From contig NZ_QPIG01000005.1 in assembly GCF_003337215.1 (NCBI RefSeq), positions 124,001 through 188,000 on the forward strand: a stretch of DNA of 64,000 nt, written 5' to 3'. The position numbers and the translations under genes were made by a program. Every line of letters starts with the position of its first letter. Position 1 is the stretch's first letter. This stretch comes from Oceanihabitans sediminis. GTDB lineage: Bacteria > Bacteroidota > Bacteroidia > Flavobacteriales > Flavobacteriaceae. Below are positions 1 to 15,057 of this stretch, piece by piece. Below the pieces are notes generated by a model. It had not been told where the DNA came from and did not search any database. It worked only from the letters and a program-made list of their open reading frames with translations.

Positions 1-800
1 AAAGCTTGTATTAATTGGTCTATTCCTTTTGCAGGAATATGTGTTCCTATATATCCAAATGTAAACACCTCTTTGGTATTCACTTTCTCCGTTTGAGTTA
101 AATAATGCGTTGGAAAACCATAGTCTAAATAGATGATTTTGGATGTAGGCACATTAAAATCGGTCACAAATCTATCCTGAAGGTATTTAGAAGGCGCTAT
201 AAATAAATCTACTTTATCAATTATTGCTTTTGTTTCTTGCATTCTTCGGTTCACCCAATTACTCCAATTATCTATATCTATTTGCTCTTCTTCTTTATTT
301 CCACTAAAATAGACTTGATAGCAGCTTGTAGCACATTTTTTATCCTCTTGACCAGAACAAAGCATTGTGTTGCACTCTTTACCAATACTTCGAGTTAAAA
401 ACTGTCCTCTTGGACACATTAACCAAAAGTCATGTAAAGTAAAAACGATGGGAATTTGTAATGTATTTAGAACATCAATTAAACCTGTTGATAAATGATT
501 TAAATGTCCAACATGCGCAACATCTGGATTTAATTGCTCTACCAGTTCTTTAAAATTATCATCCATTGGTTGATGCCTATAACCATCTTTACCGTTAGGA
601 TTATTAACAAAATATAAGTTTAAATTTTCACTTACTTGATCGTGGCGAATTTGAAAATCTGGAGCATAGGGATTCTGTTCTCTTGTAAAAACGGAAACTC
701 TATGGTCTTTTGATAATTGATTACAAATGGATTGGCTATAGACTTCTGACCCTGCATTGTAATTTGGTGGGTAGCCATGAATTATTTTTAATATGTGCAT
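1..800 (-). CDS. Glycosyltransferase family 4, N-terminal part (cut by window edge)
   Basis: The reading frame opens at an ATG at 798-800 and runs off the left edge, giving about 266 residues of the N-terminal half. It starts MHILKIIHGYPPNYNAGSE, the Rossmann-type opening of GT4 glycosyltransferases, with the glycine-rich acceptor loop near residue 17. A LHDFWLMCPRGQ motif near residue 135 is followed by a cluster of cysteines, as in many GT4 proteins with a Cys-rich insertion. The visible part ends in GYIGTHIPAKGIDQLIQA, the start of the donor-binding C-terminal domain. The likely role is transfer of a sugar from a nucleotide-sugar during surface polysaccharide synthesis in the cytoplasm; substrate unknown. 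It lies 40 bp downstream of mcrC on the same strand and probably belongs to a separate polysaccharide cluster to the left. Confidence 0.85.
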   Translation of the reverse strand, partial: MHILKIIHGYPPNYNAGSEVYSQSICNQLSKDHRVSVFTREQNPYAPDFQIRHDQVSENLNLYFVNNPNGKDGYRHQPMDDNFKELVEQLNPDVAHVGHLNHLSTGLIDVLNTLQIPIVFTLHDFWLMCPRGQFLTRSIGKECNTMLCSGQEDKKCATSCYQVYFSGNKEEEQIDIDNWSNWVNRRMQETKAIIDKVDLFIAPSKYLQDRFVTDFNVPTSKIIYLDYGFPTHYLTQTEKVNTKEVFTFGYIGTHIPAKGIDQLIQA

Positions 801-840: not shown

Positions 841-2085
841 TTATAATTTGATAAGATCTAATATTAACGATCCTATGTTTGTATTTAAGTTATTATTGTC
901 ACCCAAAACAGATACAAATCCCATTTTACACTGATGATCTATTTCTCTATGATTATCTTCATGGTCTTTGGAGTAATCATCCGTTAAATAAGATTTAAAT
1001 TTGTTTTCAGAATCCGTTCCAGGGTAAAGAAGCATTGCTTTTTCTGCATCCCAAAAACGGCAATAGGTGTACATTTGACGTAAATCACCAACGGAAGCAG
1101 CGGTCTTATTAGGCCTTTTCCATTTGGTGTCTATTATGTAGGTGGTCTCTCCTTCTCTCAAAACAACATCAGGTCTTAAACTATTATTACCCCAAAAAGA
1201 TTTAGATTCTTGTCCTGAAACTGTAATCCCTGTTCCAACACAAGCTTTCTGAAGCTGTTTTAATATATATTCTTCCCAAAGGACATTCATATCAAAAAGA
1301 AGAGATAACATCTTTTCTTTTCCACTAGAAATATCTGGAGAATAGTTTAAAATAATCAATCTAGCTAATTCTAAAGCAGAACTATAAGCATTTGATTTTC
1401 GATTTAATTGTATCGAGTTTAATTGTTTTGCAGTAATAGTCTTGTTTGTTACTTCCGGAAAGTTCAACAACACTCTATTAGTTAAATCCTGTAACCTAGA
1501 ACCTTTTGTAAATTGTTCAACAACAGTTAAAGCTTTATATAAAACCTGGTGAAGAAAGTGATCTTGATCATAAACTTGATGCGTGGTATAGAATCGCTCC
1601 TTATGAACACAATTCTTCCTAATATGATTTGCAAACTCTAGCTTACCTTTTAATGCTTTTGTATTACGTGTTTGCTTTCGGTATTGTTTTATTAATCCTT
1701 TCCTAACAAGGTTTTCAATCTCGAATAGATACAACTCAAAGTATACTTCTAATAAATTAAGGTGCTGTCTTTTTACATGAGCTACGCCAGAAGATTCTGC
1801 TTTAAGTTTCCCACAAGCTTGAAGCATTTTGATTAAAACACCTTTCCATTTCCTGTCCTCATCATCTTTATCTGCCTTAGGATGAATTTCTATAGTTAAA
1901 CCATCTACCTGAATAACGCCAACATATTGATTAAACTTAATACCCTTAGCAATTGGTTCAAAATAATTACCATCATGGTACTCATTCAGTTTTAATAAAG
2001 CATCTAAGTGTACTTGCTTAAAACCTTGCTCACCAACATATAAACGTTGATGTTCAAAAACAGATATGTTTCCTCTTTTTTTCAA
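841..2085 (-). CDS. mcrC: McrC, nuclease subunit of McrBC-type restriction system
   Basis: A 414-residue protein of normal McrC length. McrC supplies the endonuclease of the GTP-driven McrBC complex, which cuts DNA carrying modified cytosines. A PD-(D/E)XK core is visible as LRPDVVL (303-309) followed by YIIDTKWK (316-323). The start is unusual: there is no in-frame ATG near the N-terminus. The first possible codon is TTG at 2083-2085, directly after two in-frame stops (TAA TAA, the first being the mcrB stop). McrB and McrC are therefore in the same frame, separated only by stop codons, and translation is likely coupled to mcrB. Alternatively McrC translation may be impaired. The family assignment is firm; the recognised modification cannot be read from sequence. 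Confidence 0.9.
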   Translation of the reverse strand: MKKRGNISVFEHQRLYVGEQGFKQVHLDALLKLNEYHDGNYFEPIAKGIKFNQYVGVIQVDGLTIEIHPKADKDDEDRKWKGVLIKMLQACGKLKAESSGVAHVKRQHLNLLEVYFELYLFEIENLVRKGLIKQYRKQTRNTKALKGKLEFANHIRKNCVHKERFYTTHQVYDQDHFLHQVLYKALTVVEQFTKGSRLQDLTNRVLLNFPEVTNKTITAKQLNSIQLNRKSNAYSSALELARLIILNYSPDISSGKEKMLSLLFDMNVLWEEYILKQLQKACVGTGITVSGQESKSFWGNNSLRPDVVLREGETTYIIDTKWKRPNKTAASVGDLRQMYTYCRFWDAEKAMLLYPGTDSENKFKSYLTDDYSKDHEDNHREIDHQCKMGFVSVLGDNNNLNTNIGSLILDLIKL

Positions 2086-2088
2086 TTA

Positions 2089-4614
2089 TTATGAAATAGA
2101 TTCTTTCTTTCCTAATAATAATTCAACAGCTTCAATCACTGAATCTTCAGTAATTGGAATTAACTTATAACTAGGATTTTTATAATCCTCGGCATGGTCA
2201 TAAACAAAGTCTGCAAAGCTTATTTTGTTACTCTTTATAAGTTCTACAAAGCCTTTGCCTAACACCAGTCCTATTTTACCATAATCGCCATAAAAGTACT
2301 CCTGCAACAAAGGCACAATCTTATTATTAAAAGCCTTAGCCAATTTTTTAGGCGTGTTGACATTTACAAAATAGGAATGACCAATGGTATGATCTCTGTC
2401 TATTAATAATTCGATTCGTTGATTGATCGTTTGCAGTACTTCCGAAAGTTTTATATCACCTACTGTATCGCCTTCTATAATACTGTAATCTGGCATCATT
2501 TCTTTAAACTCAAAACGACGTCTTAAAGCGGTATCTAATGCTTCTACAGAGCGGTCGGCGGTATTCATGGTTCCATATATATCCAGGTTTGAAGGAACAC
2601 TAAATTCCTTTTTAGAATATGGTAGTTTAATTCTTAACTCGTTTTTTGCTCCTTTACGTTTATCTATTTCAATAAGCGTAATAAGTTCCCCAAAAATGGC
2701 CGAGACATTTCCACGGTTTATTTCATCAATAAAAATAGCGTATCTGTTTTGTGGGTCATTCGTAGCTCTTTTACATATATTTTTAAACACACCATCTTCA
2801 ATGGTGTATCCTAGATCTTTTGCTGCTTCAACTTCGACGTCGACTTCCGGCAGAATGGGTTTTATCCCCTCTATAAAATCTTCATAAGCAAAAGATTGGT
2901 GGAAGGTTACGAAGTCATAGTTTCTAATCTCTTTATGCGGATTTGCCTTAAAATTGTTAACATCCTCCAAAAGTTTATATAGTTCTGGAGCTTGCTCACT
3001 TAGTTCTGACTCTATAAGTTTCCATGATTTATTTTCATTTTTATCAAAAAGATAAGGCGCTTGTCTTTGGGTGTAGGCAACATTTTCTGAATCTACAACT
3101 GTATGCATTTGCAATGTACCCCATAATGTTGCGCGCACATTTTTAGATTCAGAAAGACTAGCTTTTTTTAACACCCATCTATTTTCTAAAATATCATTTA
3201 CTCTAGAAGTTCCTAACTCTATTAATGCAATCGCTATAACTTGCCACCAAGTCAAATTAGAAACTATATCTTCAAAATACTTCTCATGTGAGACGGAAGT
3301 TTCTTTAATTGTATATCTATCGAACAACTGATCTTTTAGATAATAGGTTTTTCCTGTACCTGGTGGGCCGTAAAGAATTAAATTTTTTGGATTAGACACT
3401 TTCAAAGCTTGTTGCTGTTCATGCTGTGCTATATTTTCAAAATCTTTTATTAAAAGTCCTGGGTTTTTATCTAGAAACAATAAAAAATCTTGAGTTAACC
3501 AATTTAAATCAAGTTGAGTTAGCTCGTCTTTATTTAGTTTTGAACTCAAAAAAGATAAAATTAATTCCTCTTTTTTTAACTGCTTACAAATTATTTGCAT
3601 TGGGTTTTGCATACCTACTACAAACCCCATATTGTTATTTGACAACTCAGAAGAAAACAATTTCCTTACTAAATCTGAAAAAGCAGTTTTACTAGCTGGA
3701 AAAAGAACATCTGGAACTAAAGTTGATAACCAACACGATAACACTGGAAAGCTCATGTTACGCTTAGAACACTTTAAGTTATTTAATTTAACTCCATTAT
3801 AAAACTCTCTAAAAATAACAATATCTTCTTCTCCAATAAACTTACTTAATTTCTCTCTTGCCCCTTGTTTTATGAACTGAACTCCTTTCGATTCTGTATA
3901 ATTTACGTCTTGTGAATCCAAACAAATATTAAGTATCTCTTCATTCGTTTGATTATCAAAATCAACTCTTTCAAACAACCAGTTAGCCCATTCAAATTTA
4001 TATAATTCATCATATAACCAATTATCATTAATTATTGCATGTTTATATTTCTCTATTAGACCTTTAAGCTTATTTGAACCTTGATCTTCTTTAGATTTCC
4101 GTAAAGAAATTATCCTTGAGGTTAACTTTTTAAATTTTTCGTCCGATACTAATACATCTGGTCTATCCCCTTCTATGAACACATTAACTATTTTAGAATA
4201 ATTAACATCTAAAAAATTAAAAACTGAACTAAAACCTTTTGAGGTTTCACCAATTAAGGCTGAATATTTATCGTTATCGTTTTCCTTTTTTTTAAGATTT
4301 CCTAATTCACTTTTTAAAACCTCATACAATTCTAATATTTTTGAATCCTTCTCTCCTTTATAAACTAGTTCAATTGAAAAAGACAAATAGTTTGTACTTG
4401 GTTCTGGCCAAAACACCAAACCAACACTTTTTGTTTTATTTATTCCTCCACTTCTATTAATTAAACCAACAAAAGCATAATTATCATTCCCTTGAAACCA
4501 ATAGCCATCATTAAGTTTGTTGTTATTATTCTTTTGTCTAGGAATAAATTTAAATTCCTTATTAATTTTTGAATATTCAATTAAGTTTTCAAAAATAATA
4601 TCGTGAAATGTCAT
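2089..4614 (-). CDS. mcrB: McrB-like AAA+ GTPase of McrBC-type restriction system
   Basis: An 841-residue protein. The C-terminal half is an McrB-type AAA+ motor: Walker A GPPGTGKT at 416-423, Walker B AIFIDEIN at 626-633, and the McrB hallmark MNTADRS at 683-689 followed by LDTALRRRF (arginine finger region). In McrB this module hydrolyses GTP and drives DNA translocation before cleavage by McrC. Residues 1 to about 400 should carry the DNA-recognition domain, but I do not recognise a family there. This half is lysine- and asparagine-rich and differs from the compact N-terminal domain of E. coli McrB, which is a much shorter protein. The start is an ATG at 4612-4614. It is 131 bp downstream of the small nuclease-like gene and precedes mcrC by three bases. 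Confidence 0.9.
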
Positions 4615-4745
4615 TTAATATTTTTTTTAATTTATCATTATCAATAGCCAATACCTCACTTTAGAGTTTTTTACACTCATCATAGCTGCTATCGTATAGT
4701 TCTTCTAACTAATTCCCCTTTACCTTAACTCGTGCAGGCCTTTAT

Positions 4746-5249
4746 TTAGATTAAATTGTACTTTTCAATTAGCTCCTTTGGAAAGCGTATTCCTCCTAAA
4801 GCAAACAAGCCATTCTCTTTAAACATAGATCTACTAAAATTTGGTTCTGAGCTTTGATTTCTTCTTTTTAATTCTTCATAAAACGCTTCTTTAGTAATCA
4901 ACCCAAAATTTTTAACTTTTAAGTCCGCTCCTAATTCGATACCAATTAACTCGTCCCAATTAGGTTTAATTTTAGAAGTATGTCCATATTTGTTTTCAGC
5001 GGTAATCATTTTTACTGATATTTTAGAGTTGTCGTGTTCACAAATAATATCATAACCTGGATTAGACTGGTGTGTTATAACCTTTGGCCGTCTCTCCATT
5101 TGTTCCAAGAAAGAATGTGCTATTGCTTCTCCTATTCTACCAATAATATTATCATTGCCATGTAAAACCTCATCCTCATTAGCTACATCTAAAAAAGCTT
5201 TACGAGCTTTTAAATAGTCCAAGCATAGTTTTTTTCTTTCTCTGTTCAT
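4746..5249 (-). CDS. Small PD-(D/E)XK-like protein between hsdS and mcrB, function unknown
   Basis: A 167-residue soluble protein without a signal peptide. I do not recognise a named family. Its central part resembles the minimal PD-(D/E)XK nuclease fold: IGRIGEAIAHSFL (helix with Glu41), then NPGYDIIC (Asp67), then KISVKMIT (Lys80). The usual Glu or Gln two residues before the lysine is Ser78 here, so catalysis is uncertain. It starts 17 bp after hsdS, so it probably belongs to the hsd transcript; 131 bp separate it from mcrB. Position and fold suggest an Mrr-like or accessory nuclease of the defence island, but this is inference. It could instead be an inactive DNA-binding relative. Confidence 0.6.
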   Translation of the reverse strand: MNRERKKLCLDYLKARKAFLDVANEDEVLHGNDNIIGRIGEAIAHSFLEQMERRPKVITHQSNPGYDIICEHDNSKISVKMITAENKYGHTSKIKPNWDELIGIELGADLKVKNFGLITKEAFYEELKRRNQSSEPNFSRSMFKENGLFALGGIRFPKELIEKYNLI

Positions 5250-5266
5250 GATTTGCTTATTTTTAA

Positions 5267-6706
5267 TTATTTCTTTTTAGGCTTCTTTTTAACTGTTTTC
5301 TTCTTCATACTCTCACGCAACCTCTTTATCTCCTCCAACAAGTCTTTAGCATCACCATCTGTAGGTAACTGCTCTACCAACTCGCCTTTAAAGGCTTTGG
5401 CTAAAATAGCTTGTGGTAAGCTGTCTATTTTTGTTTTTAGGCTTTGGTATTGGGCTTCTATAGCATCTGCTTTGGAAAATAAATGTTCTACGCGTTTTAC
5501 TATTTCGGTTTGTTCTTCTTTTGGTGGCAATATGAAAGGACATGGCCCAAAAGATTTATGTGTTAAATCCGGCTGTCCTGTTCTTCCTGAATTATATTTA
5601 ATAAATGCTTGGATTTGAGATTGACTTAAAAAATGTTTTAAATACTTTCCTTCTACTTTATCCTTAGGGAAGTTTATTCTGAATGTATTATTGTGAAATA
5701 CACCTTTGAATCCTGTTAGTACCCTTCCTCTACTTTCTCCTGTCCTAGTTAAAATTATATCTTCTTCTTCAGCAATCAAACTTTTTTCGTTAATCTTAAT
5801 ATATTCAACATCTTCAATAAAACCATCATGATAATTTTTTATTCTAAGAATTGGTAAAACATTATTACCTGGACTTTTTAATCTAGTTTCTTTTGCTATC
5901 TGCATTCCTTGTTGAAAAGAGAACACATTTCCAATTGGATAAATACTCCATTTTTTCGGAACACTAAATTCAAACCCTAATTCATATTTTTTGCTATCAT
6001 TTAATTTGATATCCTCCAACTCCTTCCCAACACCCCATTCCTCCGTAAGCTTACCTGTTACCGCTTGGGTTAAGACTGCTTGTCTAAAGTTTTTAAGGAT
6101 TTGTGGGATATTCTCTAAACGGGTTTTAAGGGTGTCTAGATGACCAAATAAGGCGTCTAACTTGGCAACAATGCGTTGTTGTTCTGGTAGCGGTGGAAGT
6201 GGAATTTTAATAGTCTCAAATTCCTTGTATTTTAAATTCCTCAAATTATTGCTACCTCCCTGGTATTTAAGAATTTCCCCAGATAAGTAAAAAGAATCCA
6301 AATAATGTTTGATAAACTTTTTGTTTAAAACATCGTATAGGCGAACCATTCTTAAAAAGTTGGTGCAAACCTTTTTATAGTCAGCATTTACTTCTAAAGC
6401 CTCTTCATCTATATAAATTGTTCTTCCGACTGGTTGATCAGGACCTCCTCCAGAGATTTCTAATAAAATGTCTCCTTCTACTAAAGCTCTTTTTTCTAAG
6501 CTTGAAGATTTAATTTTTCTAATTGAAGCAGTGCTTCCTTTATCTTGTCCCCAATTTTTTATTTCACTTCCTCTTATACATGAAACAATTTCTGAATCAA
6601 CATCAAATTCAAATTCTAAATCTTTTCCCCAATCACCTCCAATCACAAAAGATGTAAGATCTTTAAATTCTGCTTTAACCCAATTATTTGGTAAATGTCT
6701 TTCCAT
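5267..6706 (-). CDS. hsdS: Type I restriction-modification specificity subunit HsdS
   Basis: A 479-residue protein with the classic duplicated HsdS layout: a target-recognition domain (about 1-165), a conserved helical spacer beginning PLPPLPEQQRIVAKLDALF (about 170-225), a second target-recognition domain (about 235-390) and a second spacer beginning LPPKEEQTEIVKRVEHLF (about 395-460), ending in a lysine-rich tail. The two TRDs each bind half of a bipartite asymmetric DNA site, and the spacers set the gap and dock two HsdM subunits. Both halves look intact. It starts one base after the hsdM stop and is followed 17 bp later by the small nuclease-like gene. I saw no nearby silent hsdS copies or inverted repeats that would suggest phase variation. 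Confidence 0.93.
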   Translation of the reverse strand: MERHLPNNWVKAEFKDLTSFVIGGDWGKDLEFEFDVDSEIVSCIRGSEIKNWGQDKGSTASIRKIKSSSLEKRALVEGDILLEISGGGPDQPVGRTIYIDEEALEVNADYKKVCTNFLRMVRLYDVLNKKFIKHYLDSFYLSGEILKYQGGSNNLRNLKYKEFETIKIPLPPLPEQQRIVAKLDALFGHLDTLKTRLENIPQILKNFRQAVLTQAVTGKLTEEWGVGKELEDIKLNDSKKYELGFEFSVPKKWSIYPIGNVFSFQQGMQIAKETRLKSPGNNVLPILRIKNYHDGFIEDVEYIKINEKSLIAEEEDIILTRTGESRGRVLTGFKGVFHNNTFRINFPKDKVEGKYLKHFLSQSQIQAFIKYNSGRTGQPDLTHKSFGPCPFILPPKEEQTEIVKRVEHLFSKADAIEAQYQSLKTKIDSLPQAILAKAFKGELVEQLPTDGDAKDLLEEIKRLRESMKKKTVKKKPKKK

Positions 6707-6707
6707 A

Positions 6708-8111
6708 TTAGTTTAATGCTTTAATTATGGCATTCAACTCCTTGGTAATGCTGGTTAATTCGGTTAAGGCTTCTTTGGCAATATCTATAGGTTCGCCAAT
6801 ATCTTCGGCTTTGGTAATACTGTCATCTGCAATTAAACCTAAATCTAAAGAGTCGCTCTTTTTAGCTATGTCTTCTCTAGAAATACAGCTAAAGCGTTCG
6901 TCTTTAATTTTGGTTCTATCTTTGGCTGTGTAGGCTTTTTCAAAGTCTTCAAAATAACTTTCGGTAAACGGCGTACGTTTTCCAAAACTTGGCATATTGG
7001 TACGCATATCGTAAAACCACACACTTCGTGTGTTTTGTTTATCACTCTTGCCGCGCTCAAAGAATAACACGTTTGTTTTTACACCTGCTGCATAAAAAAT
7101 ACCTGTAGGTAAACGTAAAATGGTATGTAGATTACATTTTTCCATCAAGTCTTTACGTACGCGTTGGCCATCGCCATCTTCAAACAATACGTTATCTGGT
7201 AGTACTACAGCTGCTCTTGCTCCTCCTCTAGTGTGTAAGCTACGGTAAATAGCTTGGAGGAAGTTTAATTGCTTGTTACTGGTTGGATATACCAAATCGG
7301 TTCTGGTTGGTCTGTCGCCTCCTTTTTTGGTTCCAAATGGCGGATTTGCCAATACCAAATCCATATTCTTTATGGTTTCACCATAACTACTTAAGGAATC
7401 TCCTAAAGCAATGTTTCCACCCATACCGTGTAAGAAGGCGTTCATCATAGCTAAACGGTGTGTGTCGCCTACCAACTCGCATCCCGAATATTGATCGTTT
7501 TGTAAGTGGTTGTTTTGCGCTTCACTTAAACTGTAAATATCATTATGCTTTAAAATATGGTGGTGTGCAGCAATCATAAAGCCATAGGTTCCGCAAGCAG
7601 GATCGTTAAGGCGTTCGCCAACTTTAGGATCCATTAATCGCACCATCACGTTAATTAGTGGTCGTGGTGTAAAGTATTGTCCGGCTCCAGATTTCTTTTC
7701 GCTAGCGTTTTTTTCTAGCAAGCCTTCGTACATTTCACCTAAACCTTCGTCTTTGGCTTCAAACCAATCTAGCTCGTCTATATGTTTTATAATCTTACGC
7801 AGGTTAGCAGGTTCGCTAATACTGGTTTGTGCGTTGTTATAGATTTTCTGGATGTTGCCAGTGCTTTCTGTTCCTAAAGTTAAAAGTAGCTTGCGGTAAA
7901 AGGTTGCTAATTCTACGCCTTCCTTTTGTTTAAGATCTTCCCAACGGTAGCCTTCCGGAAGTTTATCGTTATAGTCGGTTTCTTCTGCCATTTTAAGGAA
8001 CAGAATAAAAGTCAACTCGTTTAGGTATTGGTGATAGGTAATTCCGTCGTCTCGTAATACGTTACAAAGATTCCAGAGTTTATTGACTATTTCTTGGGTT
8101 GATAGTGCCAT
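6708..8111 (-). CDS. hsdM: Type I restriction-modification DNA methylase HsdM
   Basis: A 467-residue N6-adenine methyltransferase subunit. It has the helical HsdM N-terminal domain (about 1-130), GAGQYFTPR at 142-150, the SAM-binding motif I at 170-178 and the catalytic motif IV NPPFG at 256-260. With HsdS it methylates the recognition site, and with HsdR it forms the restriction complex. One oddity: motif I reads DPACGTYGF, with tyrosine at residue 176 where related enzymes usually carry glycine or alanine (DPACGTGGF, or GTAGF in the EcoKI type). The residue lies close to the SAM pocket, so activity deserves a check. The stop is followed after one base by hsdS, and the ATG directly abuts the stop of the DUF262/DUF1524 gene. 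Confidence 0.93.
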   Translation of the reverse strand: MALSTQEIVNKLWNLCNVLRDDGITYHQYLNELTFILFLKMAEETDYNDKLPEGYRWEDLKQKEGVELATFYRKLLLTLGTESTGNIQKIYNNAQTSISEPANLRKIIKHIDELDWFEAKDEGLGEMYEGLLEKNASEKKSGAGQYFTPRPLINVMVRLMDPKVGERLNDPACGTYGFMIAAHHHILKHNDIYSLSEAQNNHLQNDQYSGCELVGDTHRLAMMNAFLHGMGGNIALGDSLSSYGETIKNMDLVLANPPFGTKKGGDRPTRTDLVYPTSNKQLNFLQAIYRSLHTRGGARAAVVLPDNVLFEDGDGQRVRKDLMEKCNLHTILRLPTGIFYAAGVKTNVLFFERGKSDKQNTRSVWFYDMRTNMPSFGKRTPFTESYFEDFEKAYTAKDRTKIKDERFSCISREDIAKKSDSLDLGLIADDSITKAEDIGEPIDIAKEALTELTSITKELNAIIKALN

Positions 8112-10190
8112 TTATATGTTTGTTGTTTCTTTATTAATCTTGACTGCTGTTGTCATTAGTAGAGTTTTCATCTTCTTATAATGATCTTCAATTTCGGTTG
8201 TATTCCAATTTTTGTAACACATCATTAAACGTTGTTTTATACTTTCGCTTTCAATATCGTTAGGAGAATAATGACTCTTTTTTCCTTCAGGCAGTAAATT
8301 ACTTAATTTTGAATTTTGACTACTGCTAATTAAGCATAAGTTTCCGAAGTTATTTAGAACAGATTTATTTTCTAGCACATCTTCCTCGTTATGAGGATTT
8401 TGAGGGTAATAATGCTCTACCGATGATCGAAAATTAAAACTAAACCCATCTATTTTTGAATTAAAAAATCGAGGATCCCTAAGCTCTTCAGGAATATTAT
8501 TTTTTTGCTCTTCCCATTGGTTATAAAGCAAATAATCTAAGCGATTAAATATAAAGTTCTCTACACCTGTACCTTTATTTAAAAAAGCTTCTATATTAAT
8601 ATTATTGTAACGACTACGTTTTCCATTATTTGTGTAAATAATATCGTAATAATCTACCCTCTCATCCTTTTCTGCTAAAAAATTATCATACAAATAAGCA
8701 TCGCTTAGCTGTTCTAAATAAAAGATATACTCATTTTCATTAACCTCATCTCTATTTAATACATAATTTAAAACTGCATTTAACCAATGTTTATAGATTA
8801 AAGTTGGAGCAGAAACATGAAACATGGATAACAATAAAATAACTTTTTGATTTTCACTTGATCCATCACTATCGTCATTGCCTGAAAACGTATTGATGTA
8901 ACTATGATTCCCTTTTGAGACTTTCAGCTGTTTTAAGCTCCACTTTTCATCTACTCCATCTCTTTTTATGACATATTTATCATATTTATTCTTGAGTTTT
9001 AATAAATGATAGCCAAAATCTTCTACAAATTCTTTTTTATCAAAACTATTGTTATCTAAATAATCATTAAATGTATCTAATAGCCTTTTGTCATCTAATG
9101 GCACATCTTCTGATTTTTTTGTTTTTGTCGTTGTCGTTGTTTCGTCTTCAGTTTCGCTAACTATGATATATTTATTTGATTGATTGACTAAAACTTTTAA
9201 TACATGTAATAAAAAGTTTGAGAAATTAATGGTTGTAGTGAAACGTTCTTGTCCTTTTTTACCTTCCTTATTTTTAGAGATATCTCCTTTTTCATTCCCT
9301 AAAATATGTAACATAGTTTCCCCGTCACTTTTATCGGAAACAGTTTTAAAACAATTTACTACTTCATCAAAGTTTCGTGGAACAAAACTTGTCCAATCCG
9401 CTCCAAAAATAAGATCCCTGACACTGTGATGCCCCCCCTTTTCTTTATAAGTTGAAAACCCATACTGCACGTACTTTTCCATATTAGCACATGCCTCCCA
9501 AATAGTATTAAAAACGTGAGTACTTTTTGCGTCTTTTTTAAACACATCTAACATGTTAGCTTTTAACACCTCATGTTTTTCTAACTGTTCACCACGACTA
9601 TTCATTATTTCAAAATAGTGGTTTAAATCTGTATCTTTAGGAACAGGAACACGTAATAGTTTAACCGATTCATTCAAATAGTCTACAAAAGAATTTAATT
9701 TTTTTGTATCGATTTTTTTAAGTTCTTTTTTAATAATTTCATAAGCCTCCAAAATTCGTTGATTAAATGTATATCCATCCTTACGAGTTTTAGGATTATA
9801 TAAATACTCTAATGTATAAGATGACTTAGGGCGGCTGTCATATCTTAGATTAATCTCAAAATTTCTAATATTAAAATGGAACTCATTTTTCAAAACTGAA
9901 AACAAAATGTTCAAAGTAGTTAATCGTTGTTGCCCATCTATAGTTTCATAATGTATGTCTCCTTCTACAGCACGTTCATAAACCACTAGACTTCCTAAAT
10001 AGTAATTTTTCGTGTTTTCCGTTCTATTAGAATAATCATAAATATCTTGAATTAATTGCTTTATATGTGGCTCTAACCATGCATAGTTTCTTTGGTACCG
10101 AGGTATAACATACTTATCTAATTGTGTGGTCTCATTATTCTTCGGATTAAAGATATCACCAATGCTCAATTCTTTGGGTTTCGTATTCAT
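8112..10190 (-). CDS. DUF262 + DUF1524 (GmrSD-like) protein inside hsd operon
   Basis: A 692-residue protein. The N-terminal DUF262 domain has PRYQRNYAWL (30-39) and the signature DGQQRLTTL (85-93), part of the ParB/sulfiredoxin-like NTP-binding fold. The C-terminus carries a DUF1524 HNH-type motif, VEHYYPQ with His593, followed by NNFGNLCL. This DUF262-DUF1524 arrangement defines GmrSD-type Type IV restriction enzymes, which cut DNA bearing hypermodified (glucosylated) cytosine in an NTP-dependent way. Related DUF262 genes also occur inside Type I operons (for example the rlo genes of Campylobacter), where their role is poorly defined. It sits two bases after the shorter DUF262 gene and immediately before hsdM, so it is surely co-transcribed. 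The target modification is unknown. Confidence 0.85.
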   Translation of the reverse strand: MNTKPKELSIGDIFNPKNNETTQLDKYVIPRYQRNYAWLEPHIKQLIQDIYDYSNRTENTKNYYLGSLVVYERAVEGDIHYETIDGQQRLTTLNILFSVLKNEFHFNIRNFEINLRYDSRPKSSYTLEYLYNPKTRKDGYTFNQRILEAYEIIKKELKKIDTKKLNSFVDYLNESVKLLRVPVPKDTDLNHYFEIMNSRGEQLEKHEVLKANMLDVFKKDAKSTHVFNTIWEACANMEKYVQYGFSTYKEKGGHHSVRDLIFGADWTSFVPRNFDEVVNCFKTVSDKSDGETMLHILGNEKGDISKNKEGKKGQERFTTTINFSNFLLHVLKVLVNQSNKYIIVSETEDETTTTTKTKKSEDVPLDDKRLLDTFNDYLDNNSFDKKEFVEDFGYHLLKLKNKYDKYVIKRDGVDEKWSLKQLKVSKGNHSYINTFSGNDDSDGSSENQKVILLLSMFHVSAPTLIYKHWLNAVLNYVLNRDEVNENEYIFYLEQLSDAYLYDNFLAEKDERVDYYDIIYTNNGKRSRYNNINIEAFLNKGTGVENFIFNRLDYLLYNQWEEQKNNIPEELRDPRFFNSKIDGFSFNFRSSVEHYYPQNPHNEEDVLENKSVLNNFGNLCLISSSQNSKLSNLLPEGKKSHYSPNDIESESIKQRLMMCYKNWNTTEIEDHYKKMKTLLMTTAVKINKETTNI

Positions 10191-10192
10191 GA

Positions 10193-11707
10193 TTATAAAT
10201 ATTTCAAATCCTTAAAAAGTGTTTCTAATTCTATTATTTTCATTTTTATTGAATTTTCTTCCACTCTATTTAAGTCAATATTATATACTTCTTTTGGTTG
10301 CGTTGCTTCACGTATAACTGTAAAAACACTATTTCGTTCAATTGCATGATTGTCTGCTGAAGCTAGTTGTACTGCTGAACTATTTAGCCTTAAAGAATAC
10401 GCCCATATAAAAAGCTTAATAACTACCTTATCTAAATCTTTATTACCAAATTTGTCTATATAATACAATAAGGCACAATCAAATAGGTTTCTTACATATT
10501 TATCTCCTGTACGCTTACAGCCATTATAAGTAGCCAAAGTTTTGAAAATTCTAAAAACAATACCATCCACTGATTTTATATTCAAAAACTGAAGCTTTTC
10601 CAGGAAATCATTTTCATCAATTATATCGTTATTATTCTCATCTTTAAGTTTCTTCCCTTTTTTACATTTTAAATAAATTACATTATTCGTGTTTTTAATA
10701 GAAGAAACCAGGTTTTGATAGAAAGATACCATTTCAAAAAAACGCTTTCCATTAATAACCACTTGGTCAATTTGAAACGGATAAGTTTTTTTATTAAAAT
10801 CTATTTTACGGTGACTATGTGCATTAAATTCTTCTATAAATACGTGATTGATTCTTAAGGGATATGCAAATGGGTAATTAAAAGAATCTTGTAATGTAAT
10901 TCCTTTAAAAATTGACGCATTATTAGTGTTTAAAAACCTGCCTTGTTTTCTCTTTGACCATCGCCTTACTCTAAATAAATAGTTTCCAAATAAATCTACT
11001 AACTCACCATCTTCTCTATCCTCCCAATCTTTTATAACAGCCGATTTTTCTGTTTCATTAATATTAAGCATTTCCCTTAGGTGAAATGCTTTTAATAAAT
11101 CGTGTGGATCTAAACCTTTACCTCTATCATTTTGAGAATCAAAAAACTGAAATGCTTCTGAAATATCATCTAATGCTATATAAACTAGCTCACATTTATT
11201 GAAGAAAAAATACACTTCTTCTTCGGCAAAATTTACAACCTCTCGTTTAATAATATCATAATTAATAGCCATATTATTCTTCGAAATATCACTCTTAAAT
11301 GTTGTTTTAAGTAAGGTTAGTTCGTCATTACTTATAAACTTCTCTGCATACTTTTTAGTAATCTCATTATTTAATAAGCCATAGGCGATTAATGTTAACG
11401 ATAAGAGTCTTTGTTGACCATCTACAATATGTAAATAATTACTGGTTACCTTTTCCGCAGACTCATCTTTAGATTTATCATAAATTACTACAGTTCCCAT
11501 TCTGTAGGCAGATTTATCCTTATGCAGAACAATATCCTCTATTAGTTGCTTTACATGTTTTGTTTTCCACTTATATGGCCTTTGATATTTTGGTATTGAT
11601 AAATTTTTAAGACCAATTAAATCCTTTACTGTTTTTATTTCCGGCTTTATTTGTCCTGTAAATTTATCTGTACTATTGTGAAGTATTAAAGTGTCACTGT
11701 TAAGCAT
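10193..11707 (-). CDS. DUF262-only protein (GmrS-like) inside hsd operon
   Basis: A 504-residue protein with a DUF262 domain: IPKYQRPYKW (38-47) and DGQQRLLSL (96-104), matching the NTP-binding signature of its downstream neighbour. Unlike that neighbour I see no C-terminal EHxxPQ-type DUF1524 nuclease motif, so by itself it may be an NTPase or sensor. The two DUF262 proteins are clearly paralogous at the N-terminus but diverge beyond it. Its ATG lies inside the end of hsdR (8-base overlap), and its stop is two bases before the next gene. This placement argues for translational coupling and coordinated dosage with HsdR. It could partner the longer DUF262/DUF1524 protein as a split GmrS/GmrD-like pair, which is inference. 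Confidence 0.82.
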   Translation of the reverse strand: MLNSDTLILHNSTDKFTGQIKPEIKTVKDLIGLKNLSIPKYQRPYKWKTKHVKQLIEDIVLHKDKSAYRMGTVVIYDKSKDESAEKVTSNYLHIVDGQQRLLSLTLIAYGLLNNEITKKYAEKFISNDELTLLKTTFKSDISKNNMAINYDIIKREVVNFAEEEVYFFFNKCELVYIALDDISEAFQFFDSQNDRGKGLDPHDLLKAFHLREMLNINETEKSAVIKDWEDREDGELVDLFGNYLFRVRRWSKRKQGRFLNTNNASIFKGITLQDSFNYPFAYPLRINHVFIEEFNAHSHRKIDFNKKTYPFQIDQVVINGKRFFEMVSFYQNLVSSIKNTNNVIYLKCKKGKKLKDENNNDIIDENDFLEKLQFLNIKSVDGIVFRIFKTLATYNGCKRTGDKYVRNLFDCALLYYIDKFGNKDLDKVVIKLFIWAYSLRLNSSAVQLASADNHAIERNSVFTVIREATQPKEVYNIDLNRVEENSIKMKIIELETLFKDLKYL

Positions 11708-14700
11708 ACAAATACTCGTTTAATTCGTTAATAATCTGAGCAGTTTCATTTTTAAAAACTTTATCTAATCGCTTTAAACCTCCCTCTACACTAAATGGTG
11801 GTTTGTTTAAATCTTCTAATGTTATAATTGATTCTTTTTGAAGCTGTGCTTCAATTTTATCTAACCAATTTAATTGAATTTGATTCCAATCATGGGATGC
11901 TTTAAGTTTAGTAACCGCATTAGCTATTCGCTCTTGATGACTTACTAGGTTTTCACCTAGTGCAGAAGTACGAATATGCGCAATAATATCGGCTACAACT
12001 TCAGTATTAGTCACTTCTTTGTAAGCGGTATTTAAGTTGTGTTTATTATAGCCTTCCGTATCCAATATTAAACGTAACTCTTTTAGATCGGTACGAGTTA
12101 ACGTACTTGGTTTGGTACATACCACATTTAAGGCTGCAATCTTATTCCTATTGTTTTTGATGTATTCGTTGAAAGATTCCAGATAATCTTTAGGCTTTAA
12201 GTTTTTCTCATAAGCTCGTGAAACCTCTTCTACCATATCTTCATGGTCACTATATAGAGTACCATAGCTTAAAGCCCTACCTTTTTCTCTATCTAAGAAC
12301 TCCCATAAGTGTCCATAATCTTCTAAAGTTTGGTTTAGATTTTCAACGTCAATGGACTTTAATTTTTTAGCAAAATCTCTTACGGTTGGCTCTCCCGTTA
12401 ATATTTCGAATTGATCTTTCTGCTGTTGACTGAACCTTGTAACCTTACGCTGAATTTTGGCTATGATTCGGTCTAATTTAGCCTCTTTAGAATAATCGTC
12501 TTCAATGATAGAAAGCTCTTCAATTAAATTAGAAAATGTTTTAGTTACTAAAGGCGCAACAGGCTTCATTACCTGCTCATCAGCCATAATTTCTGTAACT
12601 CCTACACAATCGTATATTTTAAATACTTCTTTTCCTATTTCGTCACAACGCCTGGTGGCACGACCTATCATTTGATCATATAGTATTCTAGAATTTACAC
12701 GTCTTAAAAATATTAAGTTAGAAATACTAGGAACATCTATCCCTGTTGTTAAAAGGTCTACCGTAACAACGATACTAGGATATTGATCATTTTTAAATCT
12801 GCGTAATAAGTCTTCTCTATTATAAACCTCTCCTGTAATTTTGACTATTGCATCGGCATCGGCATCTGCTCCCAACTCATCATAGATCTCATAAAGTAAC
12901 TTTACGATTGTATCGGCATGTGCGTTTGTTGCTGCAAAAATTAAAGTTTTCCCTTTATCTTCAGGAAGTATACCGTAGTTAGAAATAATTTCATGTAATA
13001 CTACTCGATTAAAATTTTCAGTAATTACTCGTTTATTAAATCCCGTAATTTCCACTTTAATTTCATCTTCTGTAACACCAATTTCTTTAATTTCATTTTC
13101 CTCTGGATCGTAAATTTTTACTTCGTCTCCTTTTTCCCAAACAATACCATCTTTCGAAAGTTTAGTTTGGAACACATAGGGTGGTTCAAAATCTATTAAA
13201 TAGCCTTCAATCACTGCTTGGCGATAAGAATAAGTATAAACCGGATCTCCAAAAATATCTTTAGTATGTAAGGCTGGTGTCGCTGTTAATCCAATACGAT
13301 AGGCATCAAAATAATCTAATACCATTCTGTATTTACTTTGAAAATCTAATTGATCACGAAGAATTACCTCTTCCTCATCCATTTCTCTATCTAAGGTATA
13401 CCCTCTATGCGCTTCATCTACCACAATACAATCGTAATCTCCCACACTTGGACTATCATCAGAATAAGCAATACGTTGCACCATTCCTTGCACCGTTGCA
13501 AAGTGAATTTTAGTATCTAATTCAGCCGCTTTATCTTCTAAATCTTGTAAGTCATATATCTGGGCAAATGTTTGTAAGCCTTCAATATGCACTTCTTTAA
13601 AGGCATCCGAAGCTTGCTGCCCTAACATGCGTCTATCTACCAAGAAAAGAATACGTCTAAACCTTCCGGACTTTATTAAACGGTAACACATACCTATCAT
13701 GGTTCTTGTCTTACCTGTACCAGTTGCCATTGCTAATAAAGCGCGTCTATCTTCTTGGTTGGTTAGAATTTTGTGTTCAACAGCTTTAATAGCTTCTATT
13801 TGATATTCACGTAAGTTCAATCCACTTGGATCAGACAGCAAGTCGTAATCCGTTTGTTTAAGTTTTTCAACACCCTTATTCTCGTCATAATTTAACTTTT
13901 CAATTAAATCTCGTGGAGAAAACCATTGAGGTAAAGGTCTAGCAATATTTTTTTGATCTCTACCATCCCAAAACCAAATACCAGAAGCCGTTTTAAATTG
14001 CTCTAAATAAGGCCTACCATTTGTTGCAAACATAAATGGCACCTTATATGTTTTGCTATTAGAGTGTTCTGGAAATGTAATATCTAAATCATTTGTTACA
14101 ATTTTACTATAGGTCTTTGCTTGACCTAAATCGCTCATTACATTTTTAATGTGTTTTTTAGCTTCAACAATTCCGATAAGCTCTAAGCCATTAAACAATG
14201 CATAATCTGCCCATTTGGTTCCGCACGGCCATTCTGCGATAGCCATTTGCCGACCTTTTTGCGGTAGTGTTTTACAAGTTTTATAATTTAAAGTCTGTGT
14301 GTCACATTCCCATCCAGCATCTCGTAGCTGTTTGTCTATTCGTTCTCTTGTTTCAGATTCCGATTCTTCAATCTTCTTTGCTTTATCTTTAGCTCTTTCT
14401 TTACGCTGAAGTTTCGCTTCTTCCGAAATTTCTGTCTGCTGCTTTATTTTTTGTTTATAGGAGTCAACTTCTTTTTTTAATTGCTTTAGTTCTTCTTCTA
14501 ACTCTAAAGTTCTTTTGTTGTCTGATACAAACCAAGACTCTTCAGGAGTTACGTAATCAACATTTACTTCTTCATTTTCGTAAACCTCAATAAACCATTT
14601 AGTCAAGTAAAAGGCTTGTCGAAGCATATATCTAGCTTCTGCTTTAGTTCCTTCTCCCAAGTGGGAAGCTTTATTTCCAGACTTTCTTATGGTATGAAAT

Positions 14701-14951
14701 ATAGATATAATTTCTTGCGGAGTATCTGATTGACTTTCTAATACTTTGAGCCTACTTAGCTGTTTATTATCATAAGGGTCTTCAAGTTGTTCAAAATCAA
14801 TTAAAGTTATAGCTAACTTTTCAGTTAGAATACGAAGTTTTGATAATGTTGTACTTGGATCTGTATAACAATTTCGCTCTGCTAACATTGCTAATTGTAA
14901 CAAATCAACATAGCTATCCTTAAGGAAACTAAAATTGGTTTTATAATTCAT
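11700..14951 (-). CDS. hsdR: Type I restriction endonuclease/translocase subunit HsdR
   Basis: About 1083 residues, normal for the EcoEI-like HsdR class. Order: a DUF4145-like helical domain (about 5-130); a long charged coiled coil (about 148-205); a PD-(D/E)XK nuclease with Asp in ADYALF (about 249) and EAKK (about 263-266); then an SF2 translocase with ATGTGKT (about 409-415), DEAH (about 512-515), GLTATPA and QMIGRATRR; and an EcoEI_R-like C-terminal domain. It translocates DNA past HsdMS bound at unmethylated sites and cuts at a distance. The open frame could begin at a TTG two codons upstream, but the ATG at 14949-14951 is the better start. It is the first gene of the island operon; 279 bp separate it from the next gene upstream. 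Confidence 0.93.
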   Translation of the reverse strand: MNYKTNFSFLKDSYVDLLQLAMLAERNCYTDPSTTLSKLRILTEKLAITLIDFEQLEDPYDNKQLSRLKVLESQSDTPQEIISIFHTIRKSGNKASHLGEGTKAEARYMLRQAFYLTKWFIEVYENEEVNVDYVTPEESWFVSDNKRTLELEEELKQLKKEVDSYKQKIKQQTEISEEAKLQRKERAKDKAKKIEESESETRERIDKQLRDAGWECDTQTLNYKTCKTLPQKGRQMAIAEWPCGTKWADYALFNGLELIGIVEAKKHIKNVMSDLGQAKTYSKIVTNDLDITFPEHSNSKTYKVPFMFATNGRPYLEQFKTASGIWFWDGRDQKNIARPLPQWFSPRDLIEKLNYDENKGVEKLKQTDYDLLSDPSGLNLREYQIEAIKAVEHKILTNQEDRRALLAMATGTGKTRTMIGMCYRLIKSGRFRRILFLVDRRMLGQQASDAFKEVHIEGLQTFAQIYDLQDLEDKAAELDTKIHFATVQGMVQRIAYSDDSPSVGDYDCIVVDEAHRGYTLDREMDEEEVILRDQLDFQSKYRMVLDYFDAYRIGLTATPALHTKDIFGDPVYTYSYRQAVIEGYLIDFEPPYVFQTKLSKDGIVWEKGDEVKIYDPEENEIKEIGVTEDEIKVEITGFNKRVITENFNRVVLHEIISNYGILPEDKGKTLIFAATNAHADTIVKLLYEIYDELGADADADAIVKITGEVYNREDLLRRFKNDQYPSIVVTVDLLTTGIDVPSISNLIFLRRVNSRILYDQMIGRATRRCDEIGKEVFKIYDCVGVTEIMADEQVMKPVAPLVTKTFSNLIEELSIIEDDYSKEAKLDRIIAKIQRKVTRFSQQQKDQFEILTGEPTVRDFAKKLKSIDVENLNQTLEDYGHLWEFLDREKGRALSYGTLYSDHEDMVEEVSRAYEKNLKPKDYLESFNEYIKNNRNKIAALNVVCTKPSTLTRTDLKELRLILDTEGYNKHNLNTAYKEVTNTEVVADIIAHIRTSALGENLVSHQERIANAVTKLKASHDWNQIQLNWLDKIEAQLQKESIITLEDLNKPPFSVEGGLKRLDKVFKNETAQIINELNEYLYA

Positions 14952-15057
14952 AATCAATAGCTAGATTCTTAGTTATAAACTAAAGCAGCTTAAAACTATA
15001 CTAATAATGGTTTATTATATAAGGGTGAAGGGGGCCCTTAATCTTTAACATAACGAA

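Follow-up and report, generated by a model that had tools for sequence, protein, structure and literature searches.

Positions 841–14951 of a 64,000-nucleotide (nt) stretch of Oceanihabitans sediminis DNA (assembly GCF_003337215.1, contig NZ_QPIG01000005.1, positions 124,001 to 188,000; the whole stretch is called the window and supplies all coordinates below) hold eight genes on the minus strand, in the order hsdR–tgvA–tgvB–hsdM–hsdS–orf167–mcrB–mcrC. The run is very probably a modular defence operon on a single Type I restriction-modification (R-M) chassis with two cargo places, its arms standing side by side with no dedicated composite machine. The first place, between hsdR and hsdM, would hold a two-protein GmrSD of the TgvAB type; the second, after hsdS, would take a changing string of genes, here orf167 and McrBC. 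All eight open reading frames (ORFs) are open with zero internal stops, Pfam backs the names of seven (the exception is orf167), and the expected motifs were found in HsdR, HsdM, TgvA, TgvB, McrB and McrC. From upstream to downstream, the features are:

hsdR, 11700..14951, minus strand: 1083 amino acids (aa) from ATG; Type I restriction motor and nuclease with an EcoEI/EcoAI-like C-terminus.
tgvA-like gene, 10193..11707, minus strand: 504 aa; GmrSD_N (DUF262) and DUF7834 by Pfam.
tgvB-like gene, 8112..10190, minus strand: 692 aa; GmrSD_N and GmrSD_C (DUF262 and a DUF1524 His-Me nuclease) by Pfam.
hsdM, 6708..8111, minus strand: 467 aa; Type I N6-adenine methyltransferase subunit.
hsdS, 5267..6706, minus strand: 479 aa; specificity subunit with two target-recognition stretches.
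orf167, 4746..5249, minus strand: small PD-(D/E)XK-like protein with E41, D67, S78 and K80.
Probable decayed o99 remnant, 4703..4735, minus strand: 26 of 33 bases shared with a 99-aa ORF (o99) that follows orf167 in the related genome G002.
mcrB homologue, 2089..4614, minus strand: 841 aa; GTPase-type AAA+ motor whose N-terminal part of about 380 aa has no assigned domain.
mcrC homologue, 841..2085, minus strand: 414 aa; PD-(D/E)XK nuclease subunit.

The number, strand and order of the genes agree with the original prediction. Its overlapping or near-zero junctions extend from hsdR through orf167 (an overlap of 8 nt for hsdR/tgvA, then gaps of 2, 0, 1 and 17 nt for tgvA/tgvB, tgvB/hsdM, hsdM/hsdS and hsdS/orf167, respectively) and include mcrB/mcrC (3 nt), but not orf167/mcrB, where 131 base pairs (bp) intervene. 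The start of hsdR was placed at the ATG at 14951, not the TTG at 14957, because two relatives have similar starts. Minus-strand genes extend beyond both borders of the run, with a 264-aa ORF and SbcC-like and SbcD-like genes (names by eye) upstream of hsdR and a 765-aa glycosyltransferase-like gene (named by eye) starting 40 bp below mcrC; direction and spacing alone therefore do not define a unit. The G+C content is lowest in tgvA (28.3%) and tgvB (29.4%) and highest in hsdM (39.5%).

Based on motifs and domains, the hsdRMS genes of the window are a Type I R-M system, with adenine methylation and restriction as predicted activities. HsdR matches Pfam ResIII and EcoEI_R_C, scores 1296 bits against NCBIfam PRK11448 (cut-off 729), and has both helicase and nuclease motifs (GTGKT at 413, DEAH at 514, D251..E265-A-K). 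HsdM matches Pfam N6_Mtase and HsdM_N and PADLOC MTase_I (680 bits), with DPACG at 170 and NPPF at 256, and HsdS matches Pfam Methylase_S in two stretches and PADLOC Specificity_I.

The genes nested in this system form a pair of adjacent DUF262 proteins with DGQQR (at 96 in TgvA and 85 in TgvB), the second with DUF1524 and the H..N..N motif, and lie with hsdR upstream and hsdM downstream. TgvB residues H593, N617 and N626 are invariant in 14/14 aligned homologues, taken from 14 of the 17 tgvAB loci listed below (G057, G074 and G710 left out); TgvA, aligned over 10 sequences, also has YQR and FDSQN. The AlphaFold model of TgvA is modest (predicted local distance difference test, pLDDT, 70; predicted template modelling score, pTM, 0.55) and best matches SspE and DndI (E below 2e-6; template modelling (TM) score to SspE 0.28), with a weak match to BrxU (E 0.027). 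Pfam and motifs thus agree with the prediction of a GmrSD-like pair nested in a Type I R-M system. The nested pair is already known in kind: TgvAB, a two-protein GmrSD embedded among Type I R-M genes, was reported in 2024 for Vibrio cholerae (PMC11411939). The V. cholerae system (VPI-2 operon VC1765-69) shares the DUF262 pair, DUF1524 in the second protein, DGQQR, H..N..N and the Type I embedding, a likeness argued through common Pfam domains and motifs. Its pair, VC1767-66, stands between VC1768 and VC1765, a placement likened to that of RloF between hsdR and hsdS (PMC11411939), whereas the window pair occupies the hsdR–hsdM slot of another Type I family, with orf167 and McrBC coming after. 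RloF of Campylobacter jejuni is a DUF262 gene within a Type I locus, an ORF between hsdS and hsdR (PMC4619093); the window has a pair instead of a single ORF and uses the hsdR–hsdM slot. On the Aliarcobacter cibarius plasmid pACIB (L080:9645-18314), a tgvAB-like DUF262 pair lies between PD-(D/E)XK family and UvrD-type helicase genes with no hsd genes listed, possibly an alternative partner set for TgvAB. The plasmid collection also holds TgvA homologues on many Klebsiella plasmids (854/924 records matched; about 37% identity among those listed).

Two other genomes have the order hsdR–tgvA–tgvB–hsdM–hsdS with orf167 behind it: G002, of the same genus as the window genome (G000), and G731, of another genus of the family. 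Protein identities to the window in G002 and G731, respectively, are 86 and 83% for HsdR, 94 and 94% for HsdM, 62 and 34% for HsdS, 58 and 58% for TgvA, 52 and 52% for TgvB, and 77 and 76% for Orf167. When the whole window was compared with 36 kilobases (kb) of G002, DNA matches were confined to the block. In both relatives, whose cargo differs from that of the window run, the hsdS–orf167 interval is occupied by an AAA_21 ATPase together with a PtuB-like protein. The best PADLOC model for the second protein is the candidate PDC-M62B (of the pair PDC-M62A/B), with Septu PtuB models weaker, and the two ATPase/PtuB-like pairs are about 35% identical where alignable. PtuB is an HNH nuclease; Pfam found no HNH domain in the PtuB-like proteins of G002 and G731. 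After orf167 come o99 and a KAP ATPase; in G002 they follow at once, in G731 three ORFs later. A SelO gene lies upstream of the G002 block. Past the KAP ATPase, G002 (L005:3-6829) continues with a helicase of the superfamily 1 type, an ORF of 356 aa, a protein of the PLD family and a sigma-54-activator/RtcR-like ATPase, which may form another defence system.

McrBC was correctly predicted, in that both genes are homologues with intact motifs: like known McrBC, the pair has a Walker A motif, the MNxxDRS GTPase signature (MNTADRS at 683) and a PD-(D/E)XK McrC (PD..DTK at 305). McrC scores 230.7 bits against Pfam PF10117, and McrB matches Pfam AAA_5 and McrB structures in the PDB down to 9e-53, the best-scoring stretches being confined to residues 396-778. 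It departs from known McrBC in that both proteins fall under the NCBIfam equivalog cut-offs (McrB 119 bits against 637, McrC 77 against 338), and in McrB residues 1-380: where a domain binding modified bases would be expected, Pfam gives no match, and PADLOC gives one weak match, to PtuA, at residues 3-148 (E 1.5e-6). A search of the whole G002 and G731 genomes for McrC returned zero matches (0/2 of the other genomes with the block). Among the 17 tgvAB genomes McrC was matched in four, adjacent and on the same strand only in the window, elsewhere in the genome in two, and in G084 about 9-11 kb from tgvAB on the opposite strand; G084 also has the closest McrBC found (57% over McrB 411-803, McrC 49%).

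The original prediction had presented the full combination as the best candidate for an undescribed composite system. In that explanation all eight products would be selected together and act jointly, HsdMS for instance providing a self mark around which the Type IV arms are tuned. We consider it quite improbable, mainly on the ground that neither sister-block genome gives an McrC match, and also because McrC is a same-strand neighbour in 1/17 tgvAB loci. The gene-neighbourhood comparison that had been proposed gave a split result: the string through orf167 recurs in the two relatives, whereas McrBC does not recur with it. No published description of hsdR-tgvA-tgvB-hsdM-hsdS followed by mcrBC was found among the open-licence papers listed by literature searches, and of the three listed papers that name Oceanihabitans and restriction none has a title on restriction systems.

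HsdM was also searched at E 1e-100 in 299 genomes of the family (a draw that does not include G002), where it occurs in seven, namely G000, G731 and five more. None of the five further loci, each fetched with 20 kb around it, has tgvAB. In G045, hsdS is followed by an ATPase/PtuB-like pair and then by divergent mcrB-mcrC (Pfam McrBC, 98.9 bits), so that McrBC stands behind the R-M family of the window at 2/8 loci when G002 is counted as well. The original prediction had taken homologues in which the genes never co-occur as the sign of chance proximity; the G045 locus is a partial co-occurrence. The window and G045 McrBC pairs can be aligned only in part, with 23-32% identity there, which points to repeated capture and hardly to one inherited pair, and the pairing of McrBC with this R-M family probably recurs in that way.

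The 131-bp gap before mcrB likely, though not certainly, holds a scrap of a gene present before McrBC. Positions 4703..4735 match the start of G002 o99 at 26/33 bases with an in-frame stop in the window copy, and the offset from the orf167 stop codon is nearly equal in the two genomes (10 and 12 nt). As good a match to G002 was obtained in 2/2000 shuffles and in 1/507 G002 background stretches. The comparison of the whole region with G002 passed through these positions as well. With this scrap ahead of it, McrBC looks like the replacement of another cargo gene, which again argues against an eight-gene composite.

The tgvAB pair has a history distinct from that of its frame. Between G002 and G731, DNA identity is 83.8% in hsdR, 98.4% in tgvA, 99.1% in tgvB and 90.9% in hsdM, and the best tract (3,984 bp, 68 differences) ends within hsdR and within hsdM. 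Near-identity inside an 84–91% frame indicates an exchanged cassette, and the simplest reading of these sequences is that tgvAB was swapped as a unit between genera via flanking hsd homology. Against G002 and G731, window tgvAB is mostly 60-75% identical in 200-base blocks, compared with about 69-86% for hsdR and 80-93% for hsdM. Recombination of tgvAB independently of hsdR and hsdM is a further point against the co-selected composite, as is the passage of the minus-strand run into unrelated genes on both sides. The tract gives a sequence view of a nested Type IV pair being exchanged between genera, and makes the embedding of defence genes testable as cassette swapping by homologous recombination.

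Several observations weigh against the modular operon. The hsdS–mcrB stretch was searched on the minus strand for a terminator-like site and none was found, so that one transcript through mcrBC is possible, which together with the tight junctions as far as orf167 also suits a composite. McrBC after the same R-M family in G045, there divergent, is predicted by the cooperative explanation too. Some McrBC homologues have an N6-methyladenine sensor (PMC12707154), and HsdM is by family an N6-adenine methylase, which leaves room for interplay. The order hsdR-tgvA-tgvB-hsdM-hsdS was found at only three loci, a small number of genomes on which to call the block shared; the short remnant does not match the G731 copy significantly (183/2000 shuffles as good); and homologues are the basis for inferring an activity on modified cytosine.

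The 17 loci are the genomes with a tgvA-tgvB pair; G502 and G217, with a DUF262 protein and no tgvB-like partner, were left out, as were weaker DUF262 matches. Ten of the neighbouring proteins were checked with Pfam, and several HsdM, HsdS and HsdR calls are weak BLAST matches. With R, M and S for the hsd genes and A and B for tgvA and tgvB, the arrangements are:

R-A-B-M-S: G000, G002, G731.
M-S-A-B-R: G084, G796, G074, G710, G296.
M-S-A-B-[ORF]-R: G180.
M-S-[three ORFs]-A-B-R: G287.
M(broken)-S-R-A-B: G618.
R-[DUF262-like]-M-S-A-B: G785.
HsdR-like neighbour alone: G627.
No recognised Type I neighbour: G057 (contig edge, broken genes), G691, G490, G227 (an HsdR-like helicase about 7.5 kb away).

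At 12/17 loci tgvAB is thus nested among Type I hsd genes or their immediate neighbour, and at one more it adjoins an HsdR-like gene only. These counts bear on a plain defence-island neighbourhood, in which independent systems became adjacent by chance and nesting was not under selection. The four loci with no recognised Type I gene beside tgvAB favour such an island, as do three of four plasmid contexts that list no hsd gene next to TgvAB (annotation incomplete). We nevertheless hold it to be quite improbable, since association with hsd genes prevails over the 17 loci, identical order is found at three loci in two genera, and published work finds Type I genes enriched near GmrSD (PMC4619093). 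In the E. coli immigration control region, hsdRMS stands with mrr, mcrBC and gmrSD homologues in one variable island, and some E. coli have a GmrSD homologue in place of McrBC (PMC12707154). That region is described as a hotspot of separate systems, whereas the window has a close-packed run with the GmrSD pair inside the hsd genes. McrBC systems of the CoCoNuT type are likewise reported near Type I R-M and GmrSD (PMC11090510). As a caution, close packing of defence genes does not by itself make them one system.

For the modular operon, the biochemical activities, targets, co-transcription and complementarity of the arms are what we infer. From what is known of the family, HsdMS would methylate adenines of the host at a single sequence, and DNA without this mark would be cut by HsdRMS. 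GmrSD is known for modified cytosine. By analogy with V. cholerae, TgvA and TgvB would jointly sense hypermodified-cytosine phage DNA via DUF262, and the TgvB His-Me nuclease would cut it; when made in E. coli, V. cholerae TgvA and TgvB were both required against Tevenvirinae, which have hypermodified cytosine (PMC11411939). McrBC, which stops phages in Campylobacter jejuni (PMC8713573), would cut DNA with some other base modification. The arms would work in parallel from one transcript or two, with cassettes exchanged by recombination in conserved hsd sequence, and the present combination would be a snapshot.

The slot between hsdR and hsdM varies within the R-M family of the window, and among the 17 loci only this family has tgvAB directly in it. 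In members without tgvAB, hsdR and hsdM are separated by 16 bp (G682), 121 bp (G045) and 20 bp (G723). In G687 (L102:9625-10254) the slot holds a homologue of OGG-like 8-oxoguanine glycosylases (PF21790, 86.8 bits); G649 has no hsdR within 20 kb and is uninformative on the slot. Brig-type glycosylases are anti-phage enzymes that act on modified bases (PMC13160076). A tentative and rather doubtful extension is that the chassis sorts its cargo: the hsdR–hsdM slot would take agents against modified DNA (TgvAB, the G687 glycosylase), the slot after hsdS would take effectors, and Orf167 or a DUF6998 protein (G723) would be a small nuclease-like partner. The anti-modification arm would then be renewed by cassette swaps via hsd homology while the self-protecting methylase is kept. 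G785 (L070, L071; ORFs G785_10 to G785_16) has GmrSD-type genes in both slots of one Type I operon: a DUF262-like gene in the hsdR–hsdM slot and, after hsdS, a separate tgvAB pair.

Orf167 deserves attention as a small nuclease-like protein without an assigned family: with the thresholds applied, Pfam, PADLOC and NCBIfam gave it no match. Its PD-(D/E)XK-like label is a weak one, taken from a low-confidence fold model and the order of motif residues. The model is poor (pLDDT 55, pTM 0.54), and its first eight Foldseek matches are NhoI, Eco15I and PvuII, with E values of 1.4e-3 to 4.5e-3 (none <1e-3), probabilities of 0.99-1.00 and TM scores of 0.42-0.45; the match at E 1.4e-3 (probability 1.00) has a TM score of 0.43 and a root-mean-square deviation of 10 A. 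RecU ranks next, followed by DpnI, other nucleases and unrelated folds. NhoI and Eco15I belong to the BisI family of modification-dependent endonucleases, in which Eco15I has residues E49, D69, Q79 and K81 (PMC11347163). They are similar in size to Orf167 and share the order helix Glu, Asp, xxK, whereas the Glu-Asp spacing is 26 in Orf167 and 20 in Eco15I, and Asp to Ser/Gln is 11 and 10, respectively. No sequence similarity to the BisI family was detected, and of the catalytic set E, D, Q, K, Orf167 keeps E41, D67 and K80 with Ser78 at the Gln79 position. These four residues are unvarying in 3/3 copies. Orf167 could be a nuclease whose site is unusual, a relic that binds DNA, or neither of these.

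The distribution of orf167 is narrow. Searches of Bacteroidota genomes covered samples of at most 397. In overlapping draws it was found in 2/149 relatives (G000, G002) and 2/329 family genomes (G000, G731), and of 247 phylum genomes 10 pass E 0.1 with one convincing (G000), the other nine (14.6-16.9 bits) being read as chance or general fold likeness. Scanning genome contigs with two short peptide patterns gave one locus, that of G002. Plasmids, phages and viral contigs gave none, the best E value against PHROGs was 0.34, and a PDB sequence search gave no match with the single sequence and one with a profile (E 0.27, taken as chance). Among the genomes searched, orf167 is restricted to the three with the order hsdR-tgvA-tgvB-hsdM-hsdS. 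In G723 (L104:3554-4024) a DUF6998 protein (107 bits) of similar size, with GxIGE..YD..QIK, follows an ATPase/PtuB-like pair behind hsdS and by its motif looks like a small restriction-fold nuclease. Kinship of Orf167 with DUF6998 was tried and rejected: hhalign against two DUF6998 proteins gave a probability of 1.2%, and the motif alone is in common.

Regulation of the RptR type, which uses a TAGCTA site and comes from work on a Type I system enclosing a toxin-antitoxin pair (PMC12255303), was considered. TAGCTA lies 6 bases ahead of the window hsdR ORF and again 41 bases into it (counted from the TTG), and is present 24 times in the whole window; at this locus it is absent in G002 and G731 and present in 1/4 further relatives, inside hsdR only, and the idea was dropped. 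A Bacteroidota-type promoter pattern matched 3 times in the window against 5.5 by chance, with none before hsdR or mcrB. There is a weak promoter-like match at 4644-4617, and such matches in the region (53) are fewer than the shuffle mean (70.5). The window SbcC-like gene, sought as a guide to an empty site, matched 1/7 genomes of the genus and none but its own. On the strand of mcrC, window positions 1-800 and about 4.8 kb to their left (L006) hold carbamoyltransferase-, methyltransferase-, phosphatase- and glycosyltransferase-like genes, and the genes directly below mcrC, named by eye, are perhaps a biosynthetic cluster.

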